From NCBI GenBank assembly GCA_029834535.1, contig JAQMWT010000391.1:248001-312000 (forward strand): 64,000 nucleotides of DNA, read 5' to 3'. Each line of letters opens with the position of its first letter. The stretch's first letter is position 1. Made by a program: the position numbers and the translations under genes. The notes beneath the pieces were generated by a model, which had not been told where the DNA came from, did no database searches, and saw only the letters and a program-made list of their open reading frames with translations. This stretch comes from Chrysophaeum taylorii (Eukaryota; Sar; Pelagophyceae; Pelagomonadales; Pelagomonadaceae). Below are positions 41,633 to 64,000 of the stretch, one piece after another.

Positions 41633-42589
41633 TCACGCGCGCAGGCGCATTGTGATGAGTGGTCGAGTGACAGAAGAGCGCACGCCCGATGTCGGGCGAA
41701 AAGGTTTGCGGTCTTTGAGGTTGTGTGGAATCTCCTTGAACGCTTCTTTATCGGGTTGTCGTCGAAGCGGGAGGACGGCGAGGCGACGCTCGCGGTCGTC
41801 GAACTGCTCGGGCACACTCTCCGGGAAGGGGCTGATCGTGCCGCTGTAGCCAGTCTTATTCGGGCTGGTTGGGCGGAAGATCTTTCGCCCTGAAGAAGCC
41901 CGTTGGCCGCGGCTGTCTTCTTGCTTTGGAAGGACGCTATAGCAAGGTTGGGAATTGGCGCGGATGTTCGGATCGAAGAGGTCCGACCTTCTAGTGACGG
42001 ACGAAAAGGGCCTCCTCTGGCCGACTCCATCGCGGTGAATCTTGTGCTCGACCTTGAGCATCTTGGTGTAGGCGTCGTAGTCGCTGCTGACGTACTCGAT
42101 GTTTTGGCCGCCGATGAGCGTCCCCGAAACGCCGGCTCCGCCGCGCTTGGGTGGCACGATCTGAATGTTGCGTCGCGAAGTGGCGTCGACGTCGATTTTT
42201 TTCTTCGGGCCTTGTGCCTTGTTGTTCGGCAAATACTCGATCCGTCCGGCGAACGTGCCCGCCGAGTCGCCGGGCGTCGACGAGCGCTTGGTCGGCGACG
42301 CGTACGCAAAGCCGTTGGGCGTGCGAAACTTGCGGCAGCCCGCCTGTCGGCTCTTGGCGAGGACTTTGTAGGTGTCCTGGTACGGGTCCTTGCCCTGGAG
42401 GTGCGAGGGCGTGTAATTGAGCGGCCCGTACCCGACTGTGTTGGCCGTTTGTCCTTTTTTTGGGGGCGCCGTCTGGAACTGGGGAGTCCCTTTGGCGCAC
42501 CCGTGTTGGTAAGGGTTGCGCGGGGGGTCGAGGTACGGATCTCCGAGGCAGTTGAAGTCGGGTTTGGAGAACAAGTAGTCCATCGCCAT
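41633..42589 (-). CDS. CFAP96: CFAP96 (C4orf47/UPF0602) homologue, axoneme-associated protein
   Basis: The 318-residue frame reads like the CFAP96 family throughout: MDYLFSKPDFNCLGDPY at the start (family F-x-E-x-x-x-I-x-x-G-D-x-Y), GKDPYQDTYKVLAKSRQAGCRKFRTPNG, SSDYDAYTKMLKVEHKIHRD, PFSSVTRRSDLFDPN, and KIFRPTSPNKTGYSGTISPFPE near the end. These short Pro/Gly-rich proteins associate with ciliary microtubules and centrosomes. It agrees with rotatin in pointing to a flagellate. I start at the ATG at 42589; the frame stays open upstream only because it runs into the Helitron end 65 bp away. Disordered composition makes domain limits hard to define. Confidence 0.8.
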   Translation of the reverse strand: MAMDYLFSKPDFNCLGDPYLDPPRNPYQHGCAKGTPQFQTAPPKKGQTANTVGYGPLNYTPSHLQGKDPYQDTYKVLAKSRQAGCRKFRTPNGFAYASPTKRSSTPGDSAGTFAGRIEYLPNNKAQGPKKKIDVDATSRRNIQIVPPKRGGAGVSGTLIGGQNIEYVSSDYDAYTKMLKVEHKIHRDGVGQRRPFSSVTRRSDLFDPNIRANSQPCYSVLPKQEDSRGQRASSGRKIFRPTSPNKTGYSGTISPFPESVPEQFDDRERRLAVLPLRRQPDKEAFKEIPHNLKDRKPFRPTSGVRSSVTRPLITMRLRA

Positions 42590-42662
42590 GCTGCGCGATT
42601 TCGTCAAGATACGTAACGAATAGCTTTTCTTGGTAGGATTGGGTTTAGGAGTAAACAAGTGC

Positions 42663-43010
42663 AGGCCAGTAAGTTCACCTAGTCCCAATCTCTAACCCCA
42701 GTAAGTTCACCTCGTCCCGTTACGTTCACCTGGTCAGTAAGTTCACCTAGTCCCAATCTCTAACCCCAGTAAGTTCGGCGTAAACCCACTCGTGCTCACA
42801 CCCACTCACCCCACTGCTCGTCGCTCTCACCCCCGCCAATCCAAGCTGCTTTGATCCGCACGCGCCGCCAACCCTTGAGTTTACTCTAAAAACCCCAGTA
42901 AGTTCACCTGGTCCCAGTAAGTTCACCTGGTCACTCAGCTCACCTAGTCCCAATGTCCAACCCCAGTAATTTCACCTGGTCCCAGTAAGTTCACCTACAG
43001 TGCGCGTGTA
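42663..43010 (-). repeat. Helitron subterminal minisatellite, copy A
   Basis: About eight degenerate copies of GGTGAACTTACTGGGACCA (minus-strand sense) are interleaved with GGGGTTGGAGATTGGGACTA spacers and a 110-bp unique insert. The array directly precedes the CFAP96 start and matches the array at 54303-54570. Confidence 0.85.
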
Positions 43011-45123: not shown

Positions 45124-47010
45124 ATGAGCAAAGCCCTCGAAGATGACAGAGACGACGACGACAAAGACGCGCCCCAGAGCCCGGGACGATTTAGCGAGAG
45201 CGGCGACGGCAACAATGACGGGGACACCGCCACCGACTTGGATGCGGCGACCAACAACAAAACCGTCGAGGGGGGCGACGAGGAGGAGAAGAAGAAGAAG
45301 AAGAAGGAGACCATAACGAGAAAGACAACAAAGGCTGCGCCGGCGGCGCCTCAAATGGAACCGCGCGCACGGATTCCGGCGCCGCCAGGAAATATGATCG
45401 TGCTCACTCAGTTCGCAGGCCGCAGCATTGTTAAAAGCTATCGAGGGGAAGTGGATGGGCATCGCGTCGCGAACGATTTCGCGCGAAGGTCTCGACGTGG
45501 ACACGGTGCTCACCCCCGACGGCGAGACCGGCGTGCACGCGCGTTCGTGTGCCGGCGTCCCCTAAAGCACCGCGCAGGTGTGCATCCGGTTCCAGGGCGA
45601 CCGCGAGGACCCGTACTACGAACCAGTGCTGCGGTGCCTGCTCCGACACGGCGCTAGCCCTAACGTCAAGACGATGCGCGGCGCCACGCCAGCTCACTGC
45701 GCGGTAGGGGACATAGTTATTTTTTTTGCGTTGTTGTTGTTGTTGTTGTTGTCAAGGGTACTCTTCAGGCGAGCTACAATCTGACATCCGTCCTGAGCTT
45801 GCTCCACGAGTTTGGCGCCGACGTGGACGTCGAAGATAGAGAGGGCTACGCGCCGGCGCACATCTGCGCCGGGTGGGGCAAAACCGAGGCGCTCGAGTGG
45901 CTCCTCACCAAGGGGGGCGTCGGCGTGGAACGCGAGCACACCAACGGCATGTCGCTGGCGATGTTCGCCGCGACGGCCGGCCACCTCGACACGCTCAAAT
46001 GCCTCAAGACGCTCGGCGCCAACCTCCGCAAGCCGTGCCGAATAGAACACGAGCTCATCCGGGGGCAACGCGTCATGGCCTCGGTGATGGCTATGGCGTT
46101 GTACGAGGGTCGCAACGACATCGCCGACTGGCTGGTGGCCGAGTGCGACATCGGCAAGCACGAGTCGGAGATCGTCGTGTGCTATTCGCCCGAGGACGAG
46201 GAGGCGGCCCTCGAGCGCGAGAGGTTGCTGTTCGACGCGCCCGACGAATCCACCTACTCGTCGTTCGGGTTTGCGGACGACGAAGAGGGCACGCCCGAAA
46301 CCAAGGGCAAGTGGCCCGAGCCGCCGCGGAGTCCGCGCGTGGCCGCGGCGTGGCGCGACTTGGACGAAAACGACGTCGTCGCCGACTGGCGAGAAGACAA
46401 CTTTCCGGAGAAGATGCCGCCGCCGCCGCCGCCGCCGAGGCACGATTCCGACGAGCCGCCCCATCACGATTACCCCTCGCCCGGCGGGGGCTTGGTCGAC
46501 CGCGAAGACGCGAGTGAGGACGAGGATTCCGCTGCCGAGCGCGGCGCGTCGCCGCCGCGGCGCTACGTTCCGCGCGTCGACGACACCATTTCCGACGACA
46601 AACCTGACGCCGCCTCCAAGCCGCCCGACCTCAGCTTGCCGCGCCGCATGCACCAGGTCTTTTCGCGCGTCGACTACGTGGGCCGCGACGACCTGCACGG
46701 CATGGCCGACACCGCGCAAGTGCGGGAGCCCGACGCGAGCTTGTTGAGCGCGACACACCCCGCACTCTCCAGGGTTGACTACGTTGCTCGTGACGACGAC
46801 CTCGATTCTCTCGACGACGTAGTCGACGACGACGACGACGACGAGCCCGCGGATGACTCCTCAGCGGCCAACACCACGGACGTACCGTGCCCGCCGCCTC
46901 CCAGTTCTCCGGTGGGAGACGCCGTCGTGCTGCCCGATGGCGAGGCGACGCCCATGGTGGAAGCGCCGGCGCCCGCCGTGCCCCCTGACCAGGACGATAC
47001 TATCACGTGA
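45124..47010 (+). CDS. Ankyrin-repeat protein with acidic disordered tail (multi-exon)
   Basis: Two introns are well supported: 45533-45577 (45 nt, GTGCAC...CGCGCAG) and 45704-45768 (65 nt, with a long TTG tract). They join DGETG to VCIRFQGDREDPYYEPVLRC and TPAHCA to ASYNLTSVLSLL. The product has about four ankyrin repeats (VLRCLLRHGASPNVKTMRGATPAHCA; LLHEFGADVDVEDREGYAPAHICA; EWLLTKGG...HTNGMSLAMFAATAG; LDTLKCLKTLGAN), then an acidic Pro/Asp-rich tail to residue ~590. The N-terminal Lys/Glu-rich region (from the ATG at 45124 or 45037) reaches the ankyrin frame only if about 19 nt near 45400-45418 are removed; otherwise translation may start at the ATG near 45453. AATAAA-type signals follow the stop. 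The function is unknown; protein binding is likely. Confidence 0.7.
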
Positions 47011-48331: not shown

Positions 48332-49786
48332 TTACGGCACCAACCGGTCATGATGTGCCCGAGCCTCTTCGGGCGTGGTAGGACCCGAACCACGGAAGGG
48401 CGCCTTGGTCTCTAAGACGGGGTCGAGAAGGCCGAACCTAAAGGGAAGGCCGAGGATGGCCTCGAGGGCGGCGGCCGCTTCGAGGAGGAGGGCGTCCTTG
48501 CCAGGGGCGGCGACGAGCTGGATGCCGACCGGGAGACCGTCGACGTCGCCGCAGGGGAGCACCAGGGCGGGGCAGCGGGTGATCGAAACGAGGGAGGTGG
48601 GGGCGAGCCACGCGCAATAATCCTCGAAAGGCGCATCCGCGAGAGTCGCGCCGTAGTGATGAACAGGGTAGCGAATGTTTTTGTCGAAGGGGAGGTCGAG
48701 CGTTGCCGGGGTGGCGAGGAGGTCAAAGTCGCGGAAGAAATCGTCGACGGCGGGCGATATTACGGTACGCGCGAGGCGACGCGCCTCGTCGGCGTCGCCC
48801 AGATCTGCCGCGCGAACGTTCCACTGAATCTCGGGCTTGAGTAGATGGTGGTCGGGGACTGCCTCGAACTTGACGGCAAATTTCTCAGCACGCAGCGCGT
48901 AGAAGCATCGTTTGGCCGTCGCGATCGGCCAAGGGTCGTCCTTCTCCGTCGCGGCGCCGCCGGCGAGCGCGTCGGCCGCGCGAGACGCGACGGCGACGAG
49001 GTCTTTGTGTACGGGACAGCCGAGCGTCGAGAAGGCCGTTCGAGTAAAGGTGGGTCTCCTCCGCGCGCCGCCTTCGGCGACGGCGCGCCACGACGTCGCT
49101 CGCGGCGCGATAGCGTCGAGGAAGAGACCGAGGTCCTGGACGTCGCGTGCCATGGGCCCGTCGATCGAGTTGAGGTCAACGACGGGATCGAGGCCGCCCA
49201 CGACCCCGGGCGTGGTGCGAAAGCCGCACACGCCGCAAAACGCCGCGGGCGTGCGCAGCGATCCCCCGAGGTCCGAACCGGTCGCGAGCCACGCCTGCCT
49301 GGACGCGAGGGCGGCCGCGGATCCGCCCGATGACCCCCCCGAGGTGCGGCGCACGTCGTAGGGAGTGCCCGTCGTCGGAAAGAGCCCGTTGAAGCACTGC
49401 GCGCCCGCGGCAAACTCGGGGACGTTCGTGAGGCCGCACGCGACGCCGCCGGCCGCCTCAAGGGCTTCCACGATCGGCGCGCTCGACGTCGCCACCCGGT
49501 CCTTGTACCCGACGAACCCCTCGGTGTGCGGCAGCCCCGCGACGGGTGTCGTCGCCTTGACGAGCACGGGCAGCCCGCATAGCACCGACGAGGGCGACGC
49601 TTTGTGCCGCCGCGCGCGGTCGAAGCACTCGACGGGCGTCGACGCCACCACACTGTCGACGGCGGCCCGCCGCAGCGCGCACACCTCGACCAACTCCTCG
49701 ACCGTCGTCCCGCCGGTGCGCAAGAGCTCGACGACCTCGCGCGCCGCAAGAGACGCGAGGCCCTCGTCTGGGGGTCGACGACGCAT
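48332..49786 (-). CDS. Amidase-signature (AS) family hydrolase
   Basis: This 484-residue protein has the amidase signature core: LCGLPVLVKATTPVAGLPHT (catalytic Lys), AAGGVACGLTNVPEFA, RRTSGGSSGGSAAALASRQ (Gly/Ser-rich signature with the cis-Ser) and TGSDLGGSLRTPAAFCGVCGF (nucleophilic Ser). The conserved C-terminal strand PALVLPCGDVDGLPVGIQLV is also present, so the Lys-cisSer-Ser triad is complete. Such enzymes hydrolyse amides such as fatty-acid or indole amides, or act in tRNA amidation; the substrate is not predictable. The start is the ATG at 49786, immediately before the conserved region. The frame upstream to 49966 uses no ATG that adds conserved sequence. Confidence 0.85.
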   Translation of the reverse strand: MRRRPPDEGLASLAAREVVELLRTGGTTVEELVEVCALRRAAVDSVVASTPVECFDRARRHKASPSSVLCGLPVLVKATTPVAGLPHTEGFVGYKDRVATSSAPIVEALEAAGGVACGLTNVPEFAAGAQCFNGLFPTTGTPYDVRRTSGGSSGGSAAALASRQAWLATGSDLGGSLRTPAAFCGVCGFRTTPGVVGGLDPVVDLNSIDGPMARDVQDLGLFLDAIAPRATSWRAVAEGGARRRPTFTRTAFSTLGCPVHKDLVAVASRAADALAGGAATEKDDPWPIATAKRCFYALRAEKFAVKFEAVPDHHLLKPEIQWNVRAADLGDADEARRLARTVISPAVDDFFRDFDLLATPATLDLPFDKNIRYPVHHYGATLADAPFEDYCAWLAPTSLVSITRCPALVLPCGDVDGLPVGIQLVAAPGKDALLLEAAAALEAILGLPFRFGLLDPVLETKAPFRGSGPTTPEEARAHHDRLVP

Positions 49787-50146
49787 TGTAAGATGATCTG
49801 AAAGACCCTTCTTTTTTTTTCTTCTTTCTAGATCTTTCAATTCGTTTTTGTCGTCACGCATGGGACGCACGTGGGTGGGAAAACGGATCTTTTTGGGAAG
49901 GTGCAGTTCTACGCAAGATTTTGTGGAGTGGGGCTTGCACCTGGCGCTCGCCGAAACCCAATACATCTAGGCGCCTATAGCAATCACTGCAAGTTGCGTC
50001 CGCCAGAACAGTTTATTTGGCTGTTGCCGCAGGCCATGTACACAATCCCCAGTACACCAAAAGCTGCAGCTTTTGCATCGCGCGATCTATAGAAGCAGGA
50101 CCGTTCCCCTCAAGACGGACATGGCGTCCATGTGTTGAGCTCGTCG
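49787..50146. other. Divergent intergenic region, no gene seen
   Basis: About 360 bp separates the divergent amidase and the first MSL-PPP paralogue. A poly(T)/CTT tract lies at 49811-49830. It should contain both promoters; no element is identifiable. Confidence 0.4.
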
Positions 50147-55639: not shown

Positions 55640-58600
55640 TCAGGCGGCGGCGGCGGCGGCGTCAATACGGTCGTGGTCGAGGGGGGTATCGGGGGAACGG
55701 TCGGCGGCGGCGTCTTCGGGCGTCGGGGCGGCGAGGTCGAGGAGCTGCTCGAGGCCGGCGCGCGAGATGTCGAAGGCCCTCGCGACGATGTCAGCGGGGA
55801 AGCCGTTGCCGAGGGCGGAAAAGACGCGACGCTCGCGGGCGCCGAGAGGTTTGGAAGAAGAAGAAGAAGAAGAAGAGGCGTTGTTTCTCGAGGAGGGGTC
55901 GCGGGGATGGTCTGCCACGAGGTCGAGGAATTTGCGTCTGTCGACGGCCGTGTGGAGGTGGGGGCATTGTCGCGCGAAGAGGCGGGCGGCCGATTTGAGG
56001 GACAAGGGGCCGACGTGGACGACCGACTCGGTCGCGCCCGATTCTAGAGCGAGGTGCGCCTTTCTAAAGAGGGGCGTGCGCGAGGTGAGGAGGACGCAGA
56101 CGGTCCGGGCCTCGTCGAAGAGCTGGTTGAGCATGATGCGGAACTGCGCCTTGTCGACGGCCTCGACGCCGTCGAGGACGAGGAGGCAGCGCGCGTGTCG
56201 GAGGACCTCGATCGGAGAGGTGGTCGCGGTCGTCGCGGCGGCATTGGCGGCACGACCGTCGTCGTCGTCGTCGTCGGTTTCGTCGGTTTCAGGCTTGTGC
56301 TTTCTCCGGCGCGCCGTCTTTCCGGCGGCCGCGCGGAACACGTCGCGGAGACCCGTCTCGAGTTCGTCGACGGTCGCCGCGCCGTGGAGGCGGAGGTAGA
56401 CGATGCCGTCCGGGAAGAAGCGTCTTTCGGCCGCGTAGCGGGCGACGGCCGCGACGAGGGCCGACTTGCCGACGCCGGTGTGTCCGACGATCGAGACGAG
56501 CTTGCGCTTGGCGGAAAGCTTGTCGACGACGCGGTATATGTCGACCTGGCGGCCGAGGAAGTCGTCGGGCGGAGGCGGTGGGGGCGGGAGGCCGGCCGCG
56601 TAGCGGCGGCGGTAGGCGCGGCGGCCGCGCGCGACCTCGTGGCTGCTCGAGAGGCCGCCGCGGTCGGCAAACGAGTTCGAGGAGGCGTCGGCGTCGTCGT
56701 GCTCGGGGGGCCACGAGGGGGGCGGGAGGGGCCGAATCCTCCTCGAGCCGCGGCGGCGGCGGCGCTCGTCGGCGATGCGCGGGAACACGGGAACGTCGTG
56801 GTCGCCGGTTTCCGGCAGGAGCTCGAATTTGCGCGCGATGGCGCTCGCGCGGCTCGAAATCGCGTCGCTGACGCTCGAGCTCCTCGCCCGCACGGCCTCG
56901 GAGGCGGCCGCGCTGCTGGGGTGGTGCTGCGCGCGCGGGGCGTTGTTGGTCTTTCGACGCTGCTCGTCGTCGTCGGCCGAGGCGTTGACGTAGGGCGAGG
57001 CCGCGACGGCCTCGACGCCGACGGAGAAGGCGTTGCCGACCGTGTCGCCGACCGACAAGGCGAGGTAAAAGGCCTGGGTAAAGGCGAGGGCGGCGCTGTC
57101 GAGGAGGGCCGTGTCGAGGGCGACGGCGACGACGTGCGGGACGCCCGCCTCGACGAAGGCGAGGGCCGCGTTTCTCGAGTGGCAGGCGCACACGAAGACC
57201 AGGCGCGGGCGGCGGGATTCGGCGTCGTCGCCGGCGTTGACGAGCTTGGAGATGCCGCTCGGGGTGACGGGCTGGAGACCTCCGCGGCCGTCCTCGAAGG
57301 TGAGGGCCTGGGGGTGACCGTGCCCCGAGAAGTGGAGAATTTGGCACCGGCCGAGGGTGACGTAGGTCCGGAGGCGCTCGGTGGTCGCGACGTCGAACCG
57401 CACCCGGACGCCGTTCCGGTTCTTGCGCGCGGCGTCCAAGGCCGTCGCGATCGCCTCGCGCTCCGAGTCAAAGTCGAGGGGTTCGATCGGGTGGAGCCCG
57501 TGGCGCGCGTCCTGCCACGCGAGGGGCGACGCGAACAGCGCGCACACCGAATACTTCTCCTCGCTCCTCCTCGGCGCGCGCCGCTTCTCGTTGCTGCGGT
57601 GGTGGTAAAGCACCTCGTCTCCCGTCGTCCGCCTCCTTTTCTTTTTCCAATCCTCCTCGTCCTCGGTCGACTCGTCCTCCGACGACGACGTCGTCGGCGA
57701 CGCGTCGGGCCGACGCCTGCCGTCTTCCGGTCGCCGTTCCGTCTCCTCCTCGGCGCTCCGCACGAGGTCGCCTTCGCTCGCGCACCGAAGCGTTCTCGCT
57801 GCTGCCGCCTCGACGGCCGCGACGACGACGGGAACGCTCGTCGCGCGCTGCGCGAGGGGCCTCCGGTCGACCTCGGGCGTCGGCTCGGGCGACGCCGTCG
57901 TCGCGAAGACGACGCGCGTCGCCTCGACGGCGGCCGCGACAACTTGCGCGCTCGCCTCCGTCGCGCTACTGGTGGTCGTCGCGGTTGCTGTCGTCGCGCG
58001 CTCCGAGGAACTCCGACGCAGAAAGTGTCGTCGCGCGGCCGCGCGCTTCACTCTTCGGGCCCGGTTCCGCCGGAGCTCGTCCCGGATGTTCTGGACGTCC
58101 TCCTTCGCCGCGTGGTTCCCCTCGCCGATCCGCACGAACGAGAGCCGCGAGAGGCCATCTTCCGCCTCCTCGTCGTCGTCGTTTCCACCACCACCACCAC
58201 CACCACCAACCGAAGAGCGATGGGCACCCCCCCCCCCCTCCTCCTCCTCTTCCTCCTCCTCCTCGAGAAAAGCGAGCGGATCCTCGCGCCGCCGCCGGTA
58301 CCGCCGGCGCAACAGTTCCTCCTCGGAGGGCGGCTTTGAGGAGGAGGAGGCGGCGGCGGCGACGACGGCGGCGGGGGGGTCCTCGACCGACTGGGACCGC
58401 GGCGCGAGCGAGGGCATCGGCGGATACATCTTGCCGCGCTCCGTGTCCGACTCCGACTCGTGCGCGGCAAACTCCTCGTCGTTATTCTCGCGGACGCGCG
58501 GCGGCCTCAGCTCGGGAAGCGCGCCGTGCGCGGCCGCGCGCGCCTCGACGAGCCCGAACAAAAGCTCCTTGGCCGCGTCGCTCTGGAGGCGGCAGTTCCG

Positions 58601-61600
58601 GAGATCGAGCTCTTCGAGCTGCCCCGGCGACTTGGCGAGGGAGCGGAGCGCCGCGTTAAGGGACGTGAGCGCGCCGATCGCGCACGGCGGGCCGAGGGCC
58701 GAGTTCTCGAGCGAGAGCCCGCGGAGCGACGACGACCGCGTCGCCGCGCCGTTGTCGACCATCGCGTTCAGCAGTTTGGCGGCCGCGCGCGGCCCGAGGC
58801 CGTTCCCGGCGAGCGACAGGTACCGGAAAGGCGCGCCGCAGAACAGCGCGCCGGCGTACGTCTTGGCGGGCATCGACACCCCCCGTTTTATGTTAATGTT
58901 GTTAACGTTGTTGTTGCTGCTGGGGGGGGGCTCGTCGAGGTCGGCCGCGTCGGCGGCGGATTCGCGCGCGAGCGCGTCGATCGTGCGCGCGGCAAAGGCC
59001 CCGAGGTTGTTGCACGAGACGTCGAGCGACGTCACGCTCGCGTCCTTCCGGTCGAGCGCGGTCAACACGCTCGAGACGCCCGCGTCGCCCAGCCGGTTTC
59101 CCGAGAGGTCGAGCCACCGGAGCGATCGCGTCACCGCGCTCGACGCGTCGAACGGCGGCGGCACGGCCGGGGAGGCCACGCAGGTCCGGAGGTACGCGAC
59201 GAGCGTGTTGAAGTCGTCGGGGCGCAGGTGCTCGTGGTTGATGACCGCGAGCAGAGACAGCGACGGCCCGCCGATCGCAACGGCCGTCGAGGGGATCGCC
59301 CGCGCCGCGTCCTTGGGCGCCGCCTGGTGCTCGTCGGCGAGCTGGAGGAGCTCCTTGACCGCGCGCGCGCGCCGTTCCTCGGCCGTCCGCAGCAATATCC
59401 CCAAGATCTGGAGCGCCTCGCGGCCGAGCATTCGGTCGAGCGTCACCGCGCGGATCGTCGCCGGAAGCGCGCCCACGAGGTAGGCGAGGTTCGTCGAGAA
59501 CGAGGGCGAGAAGAGGTCGTCGGCCGCGTCGGCCGCGCCCCCCCCGAAAAACCCGCCCGGGCCGCCCCGCGACGGACACTCGCCCGCCTCGACCTGCGCG
59601 GGCGTGCAGACGACGGGGTTTTTGCTCCGGGAAAACGCGAGCGACTCGATCGCTGGGAGCTTGGCGAGGCACGACTCGAGCGAGTCCTGGAACTCGCCCG
59701 CGAACCGCCCGTCCTGGAACAACAGAGCCCACCGCCGCTCCTGCTTGAACTGGTGGTGCGTCTCGATCACGCGCGCGAGCACGCGCGCCTCGCGCCGGAA
59801 GCTAAAGTACTGCCGCGACGGTAGCGCGAGCACCCTGGTCGACCGCGGCGACCACGTCGTGCTCCCGCCCGGAACCCGGTGAAGCGGCGCGACTCGCCGC
59901 TGCTCGAGCTGGCTCGGAAAGTGCAGCCGCAGGTGCCGCGACAGCCGCGCCGGGAGCTCCCCGTTGTCGGCCGCCGCCCGGATCGCCTCCATCTCCGCCT
60001 CGGACGGCCCGCCCAAAAACAACCTCGGTTTCTTCCTCCCCGCGGCGGCGGCCGCGGCGGCCGCGGCGGCGGCGCCAAACAGCTTGCCGCCGCCGCCGCC
60101 CAGCGACGACAGCCGCTTGCTGATATTCCGACGACCCCGCGTAACGTCGTCCAGCTCCTCGTCGAGCGCCTGCTCCGCGACCTTGAAAGCCCACCACTCG
60201 GGCAGCCTGCGCGCCGCCGACCAGATCGACTGCCACGCGCGGTTCTCGCCGAGCAGCTCCTCCTCGGCCGGCACCGGCGAGCTCCCGTCCATCGATCCCT
60301 GCTTGGAGCGGTGCAGCGCGCGCCGGAACGCCCGCGTCAGCTGCCCCCCGCCCGACCGTCGACGCGGCGTCTCCTCGCCCGCGCGCGAGGACGACGACGA
60401 CGCCGCCGCCGCCGCCTTGGCGGCCGACGGGTCAGACTTCTTGCGCCGCGGCATCGTCGAAGCAACGCCATCACGGGGCTGCTCGTGTTCCTCCTCGGCC
60501 GTCTCCTTCTCGGTAGTCGCCGTCGTCGTCGTCGTCGTCGACTTGCGCGAGACGCGCACCTCGACGACCCCGCCGCCGATGTTCCGTCGCGCCGCCCCGT
60601 CGTCCTCGGCCTCGAGCGAGCTCCCGCGCGAGACGAGCCCGCCGGCGTCTCCGCACTCGGACCGGTCCATCTCGACGACGCGGTGCGCGCTCGGCGTCGC
60701 GTCGTATGGCGCGAGCGGCGAGACCCGGCCCTCGGCCTTGAGGTGGTGGCCGCCGCCGCCCTCGACCACGCCGCCGCCGCCGTCGTCGTCGACCGGGGGC
60801 GTCGAGGCGCAGAGAAAAAACGAGGGCGCGTGCTGGACGGTGGTCGAGTCGGCGGCGGCGGCCGCGGCGGCGGCGGCGGCCGCGGCCTGCTGCGAGGTCC
60901 CCGCCGCCGCCGCCGCGGCGTGACGCTCGCGCGGGGCCGTGCTCGCGCTCCGGTGACGGGCGCGCGGAGGCAGGTCGTAGTCGTCGGTGCCGACGTCGGC
61001 GGACGCGCAACGAAAGAGGCCGCCCGGGCGCGCGAGCGGATTAGCCGAGGAGAAGACCTTGCGCACGGTGCCGCGAACGGCGTTGTAAATGGGGTGCGGC
61101 GGCGGGTCCCCCCCCCAATGATGGTGGTGGTCGTGGTGGACGGAGGGCTCGGACGTTCCTCTCGCGTGTCTCGCGGGGGCCTGCCGGACGACGGCGGCGT
61201 CCTCGAGCTCGTCGTCGTCGGTGGGCTCGTCGTCGTCGTCGTCGTCGTCGTCGGTGGAGGAGTCGAGGTTCTCCAAGAGGACGGGGTCGGGACCCAGCGG
61301 GGGCGGCCAGGCGGCGGCGAGGGCACGCGCGTAGTCGGCGTGGAGGAGGTCCTGGAGCTCGAGGGCGCGGCGCATCGCGAACCATTCCTCGAGGAGCTTG
61401 TCGTCGTTGCCGCAGAGCTGGAGGTCGCGCGCGCCGCCCTCAAAGCCGAGCGTGACGAGCGCGACCTCGGCGAGCGCGCGGAGCTGGGGCGAGGCGCCGC
61501 GCGCGTCGATCGCGATGCACAGGATGCACCGGAGGGCCCCGCCGACGAGGGGCGCGCGGAGCGGCTCGGCAAAGGCGAGGGCCTTGACGACGCGCACGGC

Positions 61601-64000
61601 CTCGTACAAGAGCTGCTCACTCGCGTCCGAGCCGTCGAGGAGCTGCTCGTGATCACCCTGGAGGTGGTCGTCCTGATGATCGTCGTCGAGTCCGTCGGAT
61701 GATCGCGGATGCTTTTTTTCGGGGCGGTCGCGGAGGCCGCGCGAGACCGAGGCCGAGTCGAGGGCGTCGAGGGCGACGTCGACGATGGCGGCCGCGGCGG
61801 CGGCCGCGTCGTCGATCTCGATGATGTCGTCGTCGAGGGTCGGGAGGCGCGCGGGGGCCGTGAGGAGGGGGGTCGCGATCGAGGCGATGGCGCGCATCGC
61901 GTAGGCGCGGAGGGGGGCCGCGCGAGAGCGCGCGAGGCGGACGAGCACGGGCGTCGCGCCGTGGCGCCACGCGAGACGCGAGGCGAGCTCGCCGCGCGAG
62001 GCGACGTTCGAGAGCACAAAGGCGACGTGCGTGAGCTCGGCGACGATCGCGTCCGAGGCCGTCAGCCTCGGGGGCCCCGGCGGGTCGTCGAGGAGCGCGT
62101 CGTTGAGGGGGACGGCCGCGTCGTCGAGGCAGAGGCGGACGAGCGCGTCGACGGGCGCGGGCGCGCGGAGGCGCGCGTTCCCCGATCGTCGTCGCGCGTC
62201 GGCCGGGTCGTCGTCGTCGTCGTCGTCGCCGCCGCCGCCGTCGTCGAGGCGCGTCGGCAGCGGGACCTCGGCGGCCTCGAAGAAGCAGTGCCAGCGGTCG
62301 GCGCCGCAGCCCCGCTCGTCGTCGGTGAGAAGGGCTAGCCCGCGGACGGCGCGCGCGCGAAGCGAGGAGCCCGGCGCGGCGAGGCACGCGACCGCCGTCA
62401 GGAGCGGGACCGCGCCGTTGTCGACCACGAGGGCGCCGACGCGCATGCCGTCGCTCGCCGCCGGCTGCGCGGGGATTTCGACGACGGCGGCGGCGGGCTC
62501 GGTCGCGGACGCGGGCGGGTCGTCGTGGTTGCGCCGGCGCTTGCTGCGCGCCTCGGCGAGGAAGCCCGCGGCGTCGTCGTCGGCCAGCGCCGCCGTCGTC
62601 TCCTCGGGCGGCAGGAGCTCCGTCTCGGGGACGAGGGTCGCCGCGGGCGGCGGCAAGACGCGGTCGGTGAGCTTGGCGACGTCCGAGCAGAATATGACCT
62701 CGAGCGCGAGCTCGGAGAGCGCGAGGATGGCCGTCTCGGCGAGCGAGGCGGCGGCGGCGGCGCGCGGCGGCGCCCGGAGGTCGCGGACGGCGCGCGCGAC
62801 GATGTCGATGAGCGCGCGGACGCCGCCCGCTGCCACGACGGCCGCGCGGTTCGGGGGTCGCGAGACGAGCGCGGCGAGCGCGGCGACGACGTGGACGCGG
62901 ACGGTCGACACGGGCGCGCTCGCGAGCGGGACCATCGCCTCGAGCGCGCCCGCCGGGGCCGTGACGCGCGCGTCCATCCAGCCGCGCGTGTGGACGTCGG
63001 GGACCTTGAGGGTGGCCGAGAGCGAGGCCATGGCGCCGCTCAGGGGCGGCTCGTCGTCCCAGCCCGCCGGCGTGAGCTTCTTGGACGCGCCGCACACCGA
63101 CGAGAGCGCGTTCGTCGCGTGACGGTGGAGCTCGGAACACGGCCTCGACCGGAGCCACGTCGCGAGCACGCCGAGCGCGCCGCGCTCCACGAGGGGCGGA
63201 CGCGCCGCGGGCAGCTGGGCGAGGTTCGCGATGGCGAACGCCACCAGCGCGCGCTCGCCGCCGTCGACCGCCTCGCCGACGTTTTTGGTCTCTCGACACC
63301 CGACGGCCGCGTCGCACGCGACGTCCACGAGCGCGTCGACCGTGCGCCGCGCGAGCGCCGCGCGCCGCGCCGCGCACGACGACGAGGACGAGGACGACGA
63401 CGAGGACGAGCCCTCGCCGCCCCCGAGCCGAGGCCCCTCGTCCTCCACCTCCTCCTCCTCGCCCTCGTCCTCCGTGCCGCGACTGCGCGCGTCGTCGTCG
63501 TCGTACGCCGCCGCGCGATGATGCGAGCCGCCCGACGACCGCCGCCGCCTTAAAGGTGGCCTGTTGCCGCGCGCCGCGGGCGACGTCTGCTGCTGCTGCT
63601 GCCACGCGAGCGACGACGAGGACGTCTCCTCCGCCGACGGCGACTTGCGGAGGAGCCCCGCGCGCCCGTGCGCCCACGACCGCGGCCGGCCTCGCGGCGC
63701 GCGCCGCGCGGGCGACGACGCCCCGCTCGCGGCGTCTTCGAGGAAGTGCGCGCGGCTCGCGAAATCCTCGGCCGCTGCGGCGAGGTCGTGGACGTCCCCG
63801 ACCCAGCCCTGCTGCAGCAGCACGGTGAAGTGCGCCACCGCGACCGCCACCGCGCGCGTGTCTCCGTCCTCGGCGTCGCGCTGGCGCGCGAGCACGAGCC
63901 GCAGCGCGCCCAGGAGCCTGGGCGCGTGCTTGAGGAGGGCCGTCGGCTCGTGCTCGGCCGGGATGAGGGCCGCGATCGCCGTCGCCGCCGCGAGCTGGAC
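55640..64000 (-). CDS. ARM - LRR - CHAT protease - STAND/NB-ARC NTPase (giant, 5' end outside window)
   Basis: One uninterrupted minus-strand frame of 2,786 codons runs from the window edge to the stop at 55640, so the N terminus is missing. Residue numbers count from the edge. About 1-950: armadillo-type helical repeats. 950-1450: low-complexity linker with Ala, Asp, His and Ser runs. About 1620-1810: leucine-rich repeats of the RNI type (LRWLDLSGNRLGDAGV, VTSLDVSCNNLG, FRYLSLAGNGLG, LEELDLRNCRL). About 2150-2350: a CHAT domain with the His in ILHFSGHGHP and Cys in FVCACHSRNAA, the caspase/separase-like dyad. About 2480-2700: an NTPase with P-loop GHTGVGKSALV, Walker B CLLVLDGVEAV and LLTSRTP (sensor-like). 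Catalytic residues are intact. The plan resembles an NLR in which a protease is the effector. Confidence 0.85.
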   Translation of the reverse strand, partial: VQLAAATAIAALIPAEHEPTALLKHAPRLLGALRLVLARQRDAEDGDTRAVAVAVAHFTVLLQQGWVGDVHDLAAAAEDFASRAHFLEDAASGASSPARRAPRGRPRSWAHGRAGLLRKSPSAEETSSSSLAWQQQQQTSPAARGNRPPLRRRRSSGGSHHRAAAYDDDDARSRGTEDEGEEEEVEDEGPRLGGGEGSSSSSSSSSSSCAARRAALARRTVDALVDVACDAAVGCRETKNVGEAVDGGERALVAFAIANLAQLPAARPPLVERGALGVLATWLRSRPCSELHRHATNALSSVCGASKKLTPAGWDDEPPLSGAMASLSATLKVPDVHTRGWMDARVTAPAGALEAMVPLASAPVSTVRVHVVAALAALVSRPPNRAAVVAAGGVRALIDIVARAVRDLRAPPRAAAAASLAETAILALSELALEVIFCSDVAKLTDRVLPPPAATLVPETELLPPEETTAALADDDAAGFLAEARSKRRRNHDDPPASATEPAAAVVEIPAQPAASDGMRVGALVVDNGAVPLLTAVACLAAPGSSLRARAVRGLALLTDDERGCGADRWHCFFEAAEVPLPTRLDDGGGGDDDDDDDPADARRRSGNARLRAPAPVDALVRLCLDDAAVPLNDALLDDPPGPPRLTASDAIVAELTHVAFVLSNVASRGELASRLAWRHGATPVLVRLARSRAAPLRAYAMRAIASIATPLLTAPARLPTLDDDIIEIDDAAAAAAAIVDVALDALDSASVSRGLRDRPEKKHPRSSDGLDDDHQDDHLQGDHEQLLDGSDASEQLLYEAVRVVKALAFAEPLRAPLVGGALRCILCIAIDARGASPQLRALAEVALVTLGFEGGARDLQLCGNDDKLLEEWFAMRRALELQDLLHADYARALAAAWPPPLGPDPVLLENLDSSTDDDDDDDDEPTDDDELEDAAVVRQAPARHARGTSEPSVHHDHHHHWGGDPPPHPIYNAVRGTVRKVFSSANPLARPGGLFRCASADVGTDDYDLPPRARHRSASTAPRERHAAAAAAGTSQQAAAAAAAAAAAADSTTVQHAPSFFLCASTPPVDDDGGGGVVEGGGGHHLKAEGRVSPLAPYDATPSAHRVVEMDRSECGDAGGLVSRGSSLEAEDDGAARRNIGGGVVEVRVSRKSTTTTTTATTEKETAEEEHEQPRDGVASTMPRRKKSDPSAAKAAAAASSSSSRAGEETPRRRSGGGQLTRAFRRALHRSKQGSMDGSSPVPAEEELLGENRAWQSIWSAARRLPEWWAFKVAEQALDEELDDVTRGRRNISKRLSSLGGGGGKLFGAAAAAAAAAAAGRKKPRLFLGGPSEAEMEAIRAAADNGELPARLSRHLRLHFPSQLEQRRVAPLHRVPGGSTTWSPRSTRVLALPSRQYFSFRREARVLARVIETHHQFKQERRWALLFQDGRFAGEFQDSLESCLAKLPAIESLAFSRSKNPVVCTPAQVEAGECPSRGGPGGFFGGGAADAADDLFSPSFSTNLAYLVGALPATIRAVTLDRMLGREALQILGILLRTAEERRARAVKELLQLADEHQAAPKDAARAIPSTAVAIGGPSLSLLAVINHEHLRPDDFNTLVAYLRTCVASPAVPPPFDASSAVTRSLRWLDLSGNRLGDAGVSSVLTALDRKDASVTSLDVSCNNLGAFAARTIDALARESAADAADLDEPPPSSNNNVNNINIKRGVSMPAKTYAGALFCGAPFRYLSLAGNGLGPRAAAKLLNAMVDNGAATRSSSLRGLSLENSALGPPCAIGALTSLNAALRSLAKSPGQLEELDLRNCRLQSDAAKELLFGLVEARAAAHGALPELRPPRVRENNDEEFAAHESESDTERGKMYPPMPSLAPRSQSVEDPPAAVVAAAASSSSKPPSEEELLRRRYRRRREDPLAFLEEEEEEEEEGGGGAHRSSVGGGGGGGGNDDDEEAEDGLSRLSFVRIGEGNHAAKEDVQNIRDELRRNRARRVKRAAARRHFLRRSSSERATTATATTTSSATEASAQVVAAAVEATRVVFATTASPEPTPEVDRRPLAQRATSVPVVVAAVEAAAARTLRCASEGDLVRSAEEETERRPEDGRRRPDASPTTSSSEDESTEDEEDWKKKRRRTTGDEVLYHHRSNEKRRAPRRSEEKYSVCALFASPLAWQDARHGLHPIEPLDFDSEREAIATALDAARKNRNGVRVRFDVATTERLRTYVTLGRCQILHFSGHGHPQALTFEDGRGGLQPVTPSGISKLVNAGDDAESRRPRLVFVCACHSRNAALAFVEAGVPHVVAVALDTALLDSAALAFTQAFYLALSVGDTVGNAFSVGVEAVAASPYVNASADDDEQRRKTNNAPRAQHHPSSAAASEAVRARSSSVSDAISSRASAIARKFELLPETGDHDVPVFPRIADERRRRRGSRRIRPLPPPSWPPEHDDADASSNSFADRGGLSSSHEVARGRRAYRRRYAAGLPPPPPPPDDFLGRQVDIYRVVDKLSAKRKLVSIVGHTGVGKSALVAAVARYAAERRFFPDGIVYLRLHGAATVDELETGLRDVFRAAAGKTARRRKHKPETDETDDDDDDGRAANAAATTATTSPIEVLRHARCLLVLDGVEAVDKAQFRIMLNQLFDEARTVCVLLTSRTPLFRKAHLALESGATESVVHVGPLSLKSAARLFARQCPHLHTAVDRRKFLDLVADHPRDPSSRNNASSSSSSSSKPLGARERRVFSALGNGFPADIVARAFDISRAGLEQLLDLAAPTPEDAAADRSPDTPLDHDRIDAAAAAA

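Follow-up and report, generated by a model that had tools for sequence, protein, structure and literature searches.

A conserved armadillo, leucine-rich repeat, CHAT protease and STAND NTPase protein of ochrophyte algae as a candidate protease switch

The stretch analysed here, 64,000 nucleotides of the photosynthetic alga Chrysophaeum taylorii (C391:248001-312000, contig JAQMWT010000391.1 of a 70.8 Mb assembly; hereafter the window), is occupied at its far end by a minus-strand open reading frame of 2786 codons (55640-64000), which runs past the window edge into the adjoining contig sequence, as far as coordinate 64708, and thereby totals 3022 amino acids. A predicted upstream exon of 63 bases (64677-64739), joined in frame across a 40-base GT...AG intron (64637-64676), gives a 3019-residue protein. 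The frame thus encodes one predicted chain of about 3019 residues, in which an armadillo (ARM) solenoid, leucine-rich repeats (LRRs), a CHAT protease domain with its dyad and a short Apaf-1/CED-4-like NTPase, ending after its helical part, succeed one another. The photosynthetic nature of the host is apparent from 84 light-harvesting-family matches in its genome, so that the initial annotation, which had recognized ARM, LRR, CHAT dyad and STAND-type NTPase in a single frame of such an alga, stands on this point, as it does on the intact His/Cys dyad and the position of CHAT before the NTPase. The features, with residues numbered along the in-window chain, are as follows.

55640..64000, minus strand: in-window part of the 9-kb main coding exon (exon 2), with the stop codon at 55640-55642 and the predicted exon start at 64636, beyond the window
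61316..64000, minus strand: armadillo solenoid with disordered inserts, residues 1-895, possibly starting further upstream (AlphaFold, Foldseek, VIA, family hidden Markov model (HMM), weak Pfam matches)
59366..59968, minus strand: conserved pre-LRR region, residues 1345-1545, including LPSRQYFSFRREARVL (family HMM and alignment)
58511..59278, minus strand: LRR domain, residues 1575-1830 (PF13516, PDB LRR matches, repeat listing, family HMM)
56801..57556, minus strand: CHAT caspase-like protease domain, residues 2149-2400 (alignment, family HMM, AlphaFold, structure match; no Pfam match in the chain)
57320..57322, minus strand: predicted catalytic His2227, in SGHG
57182..57184, minus strand: predicted catalytic Cys2273, in ACHS (alignment of 11 rows and dyad count)
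55931..56569, minus strand: STAND/Apaf-1-type P-loop NTPase, residues 2478-2690 (Pfam, AlphaFold, structure match)
56462..56485, minus strand: Walker A motif GHTGVGKS, residues 2506-2513
56171..56185, minus strand: Walker B motif LLVLD, residues 2606-2610
55706..55849, minus strand: C-terminal helical segment with the GxP-like motif LGNGFPADIVARAF, residues 2718-2765, followed by 21 residues and the chain end

The frame is not a product of chance: it is 65% identical over aligned positions to its nearest relative, P0023 (and 59% to the next, P0024), an alignment to ten long relatives extends from its ARM part through its NTPase, and its codon-position bias in GC content is continuous throughout. 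These observations confirm it as a genuine, very large algal protein. The predicted N-terminus matches that of P0024 across the exon junction (MLDDExSFQLALxKSRxE), hence the gene as a whole is probably not intronless, a short intron lying close to its start codon; the earlier description of the locus as intronless can be retained for the main coding exon. That two genes have been run together is unlikely, given that the relatives are single chains; among these, P0093 from Pinguiococcus also has the source "mmetsp", presumably a transcriptome collection.

Three protein searches, using LRR-CHAT-NTPase regions as queries under length limits, recovered 111 relatives. HMMs for six segments, built on an alignment of 11 rows with the window protein among them, were run on 112 proteins and located the ARM, pre-LRR, LRR, CHAT and NTPase segments together in 77 of them, with the order ARM-LRR-CHAT-NTPase identical in all 77. 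Among homologues of at least 1300 residues outside the HMM-building rows (n=81), 74 contain ARM, LRR and CHAT, and 66 have the NTPase as well. The architecture had at first appeared isolated, a view that no longer holds in light of the dozens of homologues sharing its order, including those from the named species Nitzschia sp. Nitz4 (a diatom), Ochromonas danica (a chrysophyte) and Pinguiococcus pyrenoidosus (a pinguiophyte; P0093), i.e., three ochrophyte classes. These sequence comparisons identify a conserved protein family as opposed to a freak gene. The architecture was not found in the literature searched, of which the best-ranked papers of large result sets were covered. CHAT-STAND fusions, ARM repeats and LRRs are each of known kinds; what these searches did not find in print is their order together with a latch-less C-terminus, conserved in ochrophytes. 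Separately, precomputed Pfam labels for PF27087 occur on P0030, P0037, P0041, P0085, P0099, P0103 and P0104, and are absent from our own scans of P0030 and P0085.

The protease assignment draws on the predicted fold, the relatives and the active-site residues. The best match of an AlphaFold model of the CHAT-NTPase part (pLDDT 78.5, pTM 0.77) is a solved CHAT protease, which places the domain in the caspase-haemoglobinase fold, nearest to CHAT. Of nine relatives put through a Pfam scan, three score above the cut-off of PF12770 (CHAT), namely P0029 (39.7 bits), P0031 (29.6 bits) and P0060 (31.5 bits), and P0004, which belongs to the seven-row clade of the window protein, has a precomputed CHAT label. 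His2227 is invariant in 11 of 11 aligned rows, window included. Of the 119 proteins that show a CHAT match, among them the window protein, a paralogue on contig C84 and six prokaryote frames, 115 keep both dyad residues; the exceptions are P0112, with D/P at these positions, and P0013, P0110 and P0113, which are gapped there. The window protein therefore has the His/Cys dyad of CHAT proteases, from which catalysis is predicted.

The NTPase is recognized by AAA_16, NACHT and nSTAND1, all above Pfam cut-offs in the window chain, with NB-ARC marginally below (23.1 vs 23.5 bits), and both the AlphaFold model and structure comparison indicate a fold of the Apaf-1/CED-4 type. Together with the Walker A and B motifs, this identifies a P-loop NTPase resembling Apaf-1 and CED-4. 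The segment downstream contains a GxP-like motif, for which the GLPL of NB-ARC is the comparison. Across the 66 proteins with this segment, the tail that follows it has a median length of 12.5 residues and is at most 130 residues in 60, the longest being 239; in the remaining six, with tails of more than 130 residues, there could be room for more. The winged helix (ARC2), an MHD-type latch and a C-terminal sensor are all absent from the window chain, which ends 21 residues past the GxP-like segment.

On the N-terminal side, residues 1-905 are modelled by AlphaFold (pLDDT 73.5) as an armadillo-type fold, i.e., the helical solenoid of armadillo-repeat proteins, which structurally resembles Vac8 and importin-alpha, both housekeeping proteins. 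Pfam detects it weakly in the window chain (Arm, E 0.62; ARMC5, E 0.011), while among the same nine relatives Arm is above its cut-off in P0023, P0030, P0031, P0032 and P0085 and below it in P0024, P0025, P0029 and P0060. The LRR domain is recovered by the LRR-protein profile PF13516 (LRR_6; 31.2 bits vs a cut-off of 23.4), and the pre-LRR region preceding it might, as a guess, consist of irregular LRRs. A PDB sequence search with the window protein returned LRR matches and weak ARM matches; CHAT and Apaf-1-type matches were both absent from it. As a side observation, PF03127 (GAT) appears below its cut-off at residues 73-139 of P0060 (28.1 bits vs 31) and at residues 258-311 of P0031 (E 0.023); a GAT-like N-terminus is not claimed for the window protein, as an HMM of four window-type N-termini failed to reach P0060.

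Comparison with known systems helps to place this arrangement. Canonical NLRs have an N-terminal effector, a central NOD and C-terminal repeats, whereas in the window family the repeats are N-terminal and the NTPase comes last. The protein may thus be viewed as an inverted, shortened NLR-like plan that could in part work in the manner of NLRs, without being filed among them; the earlier label "NLR-like" is apt as an analogy and fails as a statement of membership, on account of the N-terminal repeats and the missing winged helix and C-terminal sensor. In the apoptosomes of Apaf-1, CED-4 and Dark, the protease is a separate protein, whereas the window protein has it fused ahead of the NTPase and lacks the winged helix. 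The bacterial SAVED-CHAT protease (PDB 8tl0; 24% identity), which we take to be a chain without an NTPase, differs in having SAVED as its sensor in place of ARM and LRR. The TPR-CHAT of Craspase, presumably likewise devoid of an NTPase, has TPRs instead of ARM and LRR and is activated via an RNA-guided partner. This component of a bacterial type III-E CRISPR system, as it is described in PMC9729208, combines a CHAT His/Cys dyad with a helical-repeat domain as does the window protein, and the distance between its catalytic His and Cys shortens from about 7 to 3 angstroms upon activation. For fungal NLRs, CHAT and a STAND NTPase in one protein, and activation of gasdermins by some CHAT proteases, are described (PMC10197012, PMC12881547). 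Dozens of fungal NLR and NLR-like proteins with CHAT are described as adjoining gasdermin genes in "contracted pyroptotic-like pathways" (PMC10197012); in fungal NLRs the protease is given as the N-terminal module, in combination with WD40, TPR or ANK repeats, and NBS-LRR is reported to be absent from the fungal genomes analysed in that work (PMC12881547).

Prokaryotes encode the same order of CHAT and NTPase in L015 (Anaerolineae, 1046 residues) and L016 (Theionarchaea, 954 residues), whose matches span residues 9-498 and 6-530 of the 640-residue core, with best segments 32% and 26% identical, respectively. These two differ in having C-terminal TPR-like repeats, as judged by eye, with no ARM or LRR noticed. 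The CHAT-NTPase core is also held in common with the oomycete proteins P0020 (Achlya hypogyna) and P0021 (Phytophthora), likewise from stramenopiles, in which a scan with our own HMMs gave no ARM or LRR match; the record of P0020 is named "SH2 domain-containing". An identity as separase was considered and rejected: the profile Peptidase_C50 (PF03568) matches this genome only at C89:24972-25742 (L023/L024; 123.5 bits), which is the separase gene of the alga, with nothing at C391 and no match in 14 control genomes.

A CHAT tree made by a quick method with 107 of 119 rows (12 with CHAT matches of at most 150 residues were left out) has 40 of its 104 inner branches open, and its prokaryote and odd rows include long branches. 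In it, a branch of 91 rows (SH-aLRT 93, not starred) holds the window protein and every one of the 79 other rows in which pre-LRR, LRR and CHAT occur together, along with 11 further rows, some of them fragments and some with other partners (an FHA label on P0009, kinase-ANK labels on P0109). The rows with pre-LRR, LRR and CHAT require nine label changes and do not form one clean clade inside the branch, from which we infer either that segments were also lost or reshuffled or that the tree lacks precision. When prokaryote genomes were scanned, relatives of the core turned up at six loci (two in Anaerolineae, two in Theionarchaea, one in a Cloacimonetes metagenome-assembled genome and a weak match in Streptomyces). 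The simplest account would be that ARM and LRR were added to an old CHAT-STAND core ahead of the divergence of the ochrophyte classes.

It might instead be supposed that the frame is an artefact, a retro-copy or a recent transfer, i.e., a chance long frame in GC-rich DNA or a bacterial gene newly gained, and the initial annotation had raised retro-copy or horizontal origin in this sense. The GC content of 0.72-0.77 from 56001 on, the opposite-strand frames of 400-763 residues there and the existence of CHAT-NTPase relatives in Anaerolineae and Theionarchaea lend themselves to such a view. Against it stand the conservation among algal relatives, the TPR-like repeats after the NTPase in the two prokaryote relatives that were read by eye from end to end, with nothing ARM- or LRR-like noticed, and the position of all six prokaryote rows outside the 91-row branch, so that the window clade is not nested among prokaryotes. 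Given further that members of three ochrophyte classes share the architecture and that a likely intron lies within the conserved N-terminus, retro-copy and recent horizontal transfer are rejected, and the chance that any version of this explanation is right is minimal.

We favour, with a probability of roughly 0.55, the view that the family acts in ochrophytes as a conserved protease switch, engaged in the signalling of stress or cell death, and not as a pathogen receptor under rapid diversification. The ARM and LRR solenoids at the N-terminus would bind a partner, ligand or substrate; this binding would alter the CHAT active site, either directly or via NTPase-driven self-assembly, and CHAT, once altered, would cleave a target protein. 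Sensing, switching and cutting would thereby be united in one polypeptide, akin to a contracted apoptosome-caspase pair. An immune or death role is what we infer from such likenesses. The single copy of the ARM-LRR-CHAT-NTPase gene found in this genome (where only the best candidates were scored), the conservation along the whole chain and the ordinary neighbours speak for a conserved cellular role over a diversifying receptor. PF04598 (gasdermin) has no match in this genome, nor in any control genome, so that this search does not bear on gasdermin as a possible substrate.

Several observations weigh against this reading. PF12770 has no match in the window chain, a genome-wide CHAT profile search found seven loci elsewhere and none at C391, and the profile remains below its cut-off in six of the nine relatives scanned (P0023, P0024, P0025, P0030, P0032 and P0085), the first three being the nearest long relatives of the window protein. 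Of the two profile matches anticipated for the chain, that of the NTPase was thus obtained and that of CHAT was not, and judged by profiles only, the chain would not pass as a CHAT protein; the CHAT identity is nevertheless upheld because relatives carry CHAT and the predicted fold agrees. At the Walker A lysine position, 73 rows have Lys and 32 have Arg (105 together), the latter comprising, as lists compared by eye indicate, all 31 rows of the Nitzschia-containing clade (that of P0031 and P0098) and P0109. The protease dyad is kept throughout this clade, to which none of the dyad exceptions belongs. ATP hydrolysis may consequently be dispensable, and a simple model in which hydrolysis drives everything is disfavoured for the family as a whole. 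Likewise, without a winged helix or MHD latch the usual STAND switch cannot be transferred whole. Moreover, the homologue counts are not a census, as they include many near-copies and stem from region-based queries.

The main rival is a housekeeping scaffold protease, a processing enzyme of separase-like type that would serve one fixed task, be it in the cell cycle, in vesicle traffic or in nuclear transport; ARM and LRR would then recruit substrates that do not vary, and the NTPase would have a structural role or be vestigial. It would accommodate the single copy and the conservation across algal classes, the replacement of the Walker A Lys by Arg throughout a clade that keeps its protease dyad, and the similarity of the ARM fold to Vac8 and importin-alpha; CHAT is, in addition, described as structurally near separase (PMC9729208). 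However, a separase is already encoded at C89, and the window protein has both of its Walker motifs, A and B, intact. STAND modules, too, are found mainly in signalling proteins, and we regard this rival as a possibility on the unlikely side. A strict NLR-type pathogen receptor, whose LRR and ARM repeats would recognize pathogen molecules, whereupon the NTPase would oligomerize, CHAT be activated and the cell be killed, would fit the set of parts, which is one known from proteins of immunity and cell death, and CHAT is described in such fungal and bacterial systems (PMC10197012, PMC12881547, PMC9729208). Yet no expansion is seen, one copy having been found, the domain order is non-canonical with no winged helix or MHD, and the solenoids, in terms of alignment conservation, are unlike those of a diversifying receptor. 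This makes it rather improbable.

The conserved protease switch admits a bolder version, in which the protein is an apoptosome plus caspase in one chain: ARM and LRR would read a damage or infection signal, CHAT would supply at least part of the "caspase-like" activity reported for dying phytoplankton, and the activation logic would be new among NLRs. We hold this to be doubtful. Phytoplankton such as diatoms undergo regulated death with caspase-like activity and, to our knowledge, have no true caspases. With protease, apoptosome-like NTPase and two solenoids fused, and with conservation in diatom, chrysophyte and pinguiophyte members as well as many further relatives, the family is a direct and testable candidate for such a protease. 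Its NLR parts list is re-ordered, with repeats first and the NTPase last, and one clade appears to have swapped the NTPase lysine while retaining the protease dyad. We know of no NLR with this activation logic of an N-terminal sensor, a latch-less NTPase and, in the Nitzschia clade, a P-loop Arg.

The neighbours of the gene include an amidase (window 48332-49966, minus strand), an ankyrin-repeat protein (45664-47010, plus strand), a CFAP96-like cilia protein (41633-42691, minus strand) and Rpc34. Elsewhere in the genome lies a second CHAT-STAND gene (C84:132907-133821, plus strand; L013), with an open frame of 803 residues, of which a scanned piece of 696 residues has CHAT (29.7 bits) and NB-ARC (24.2 bits) above cut-offs and no ARM, LRR or TPR match; it falls outside the 91-row branch of the CHAT tree. 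A canonical CHAT match of 152.5 bits is present at both C25:69915-70691 and C521:69905-70681 (L001, L002), with equal score and near-equal coordinates. The two contigs also share a light-harvesting gene at matching places and look like haplotypes. Light-harvesting genes further form clusters on C88, C539, C518 and C390, with equal or near-equal scores about 1 kb apart, which suggests tandem duplication.
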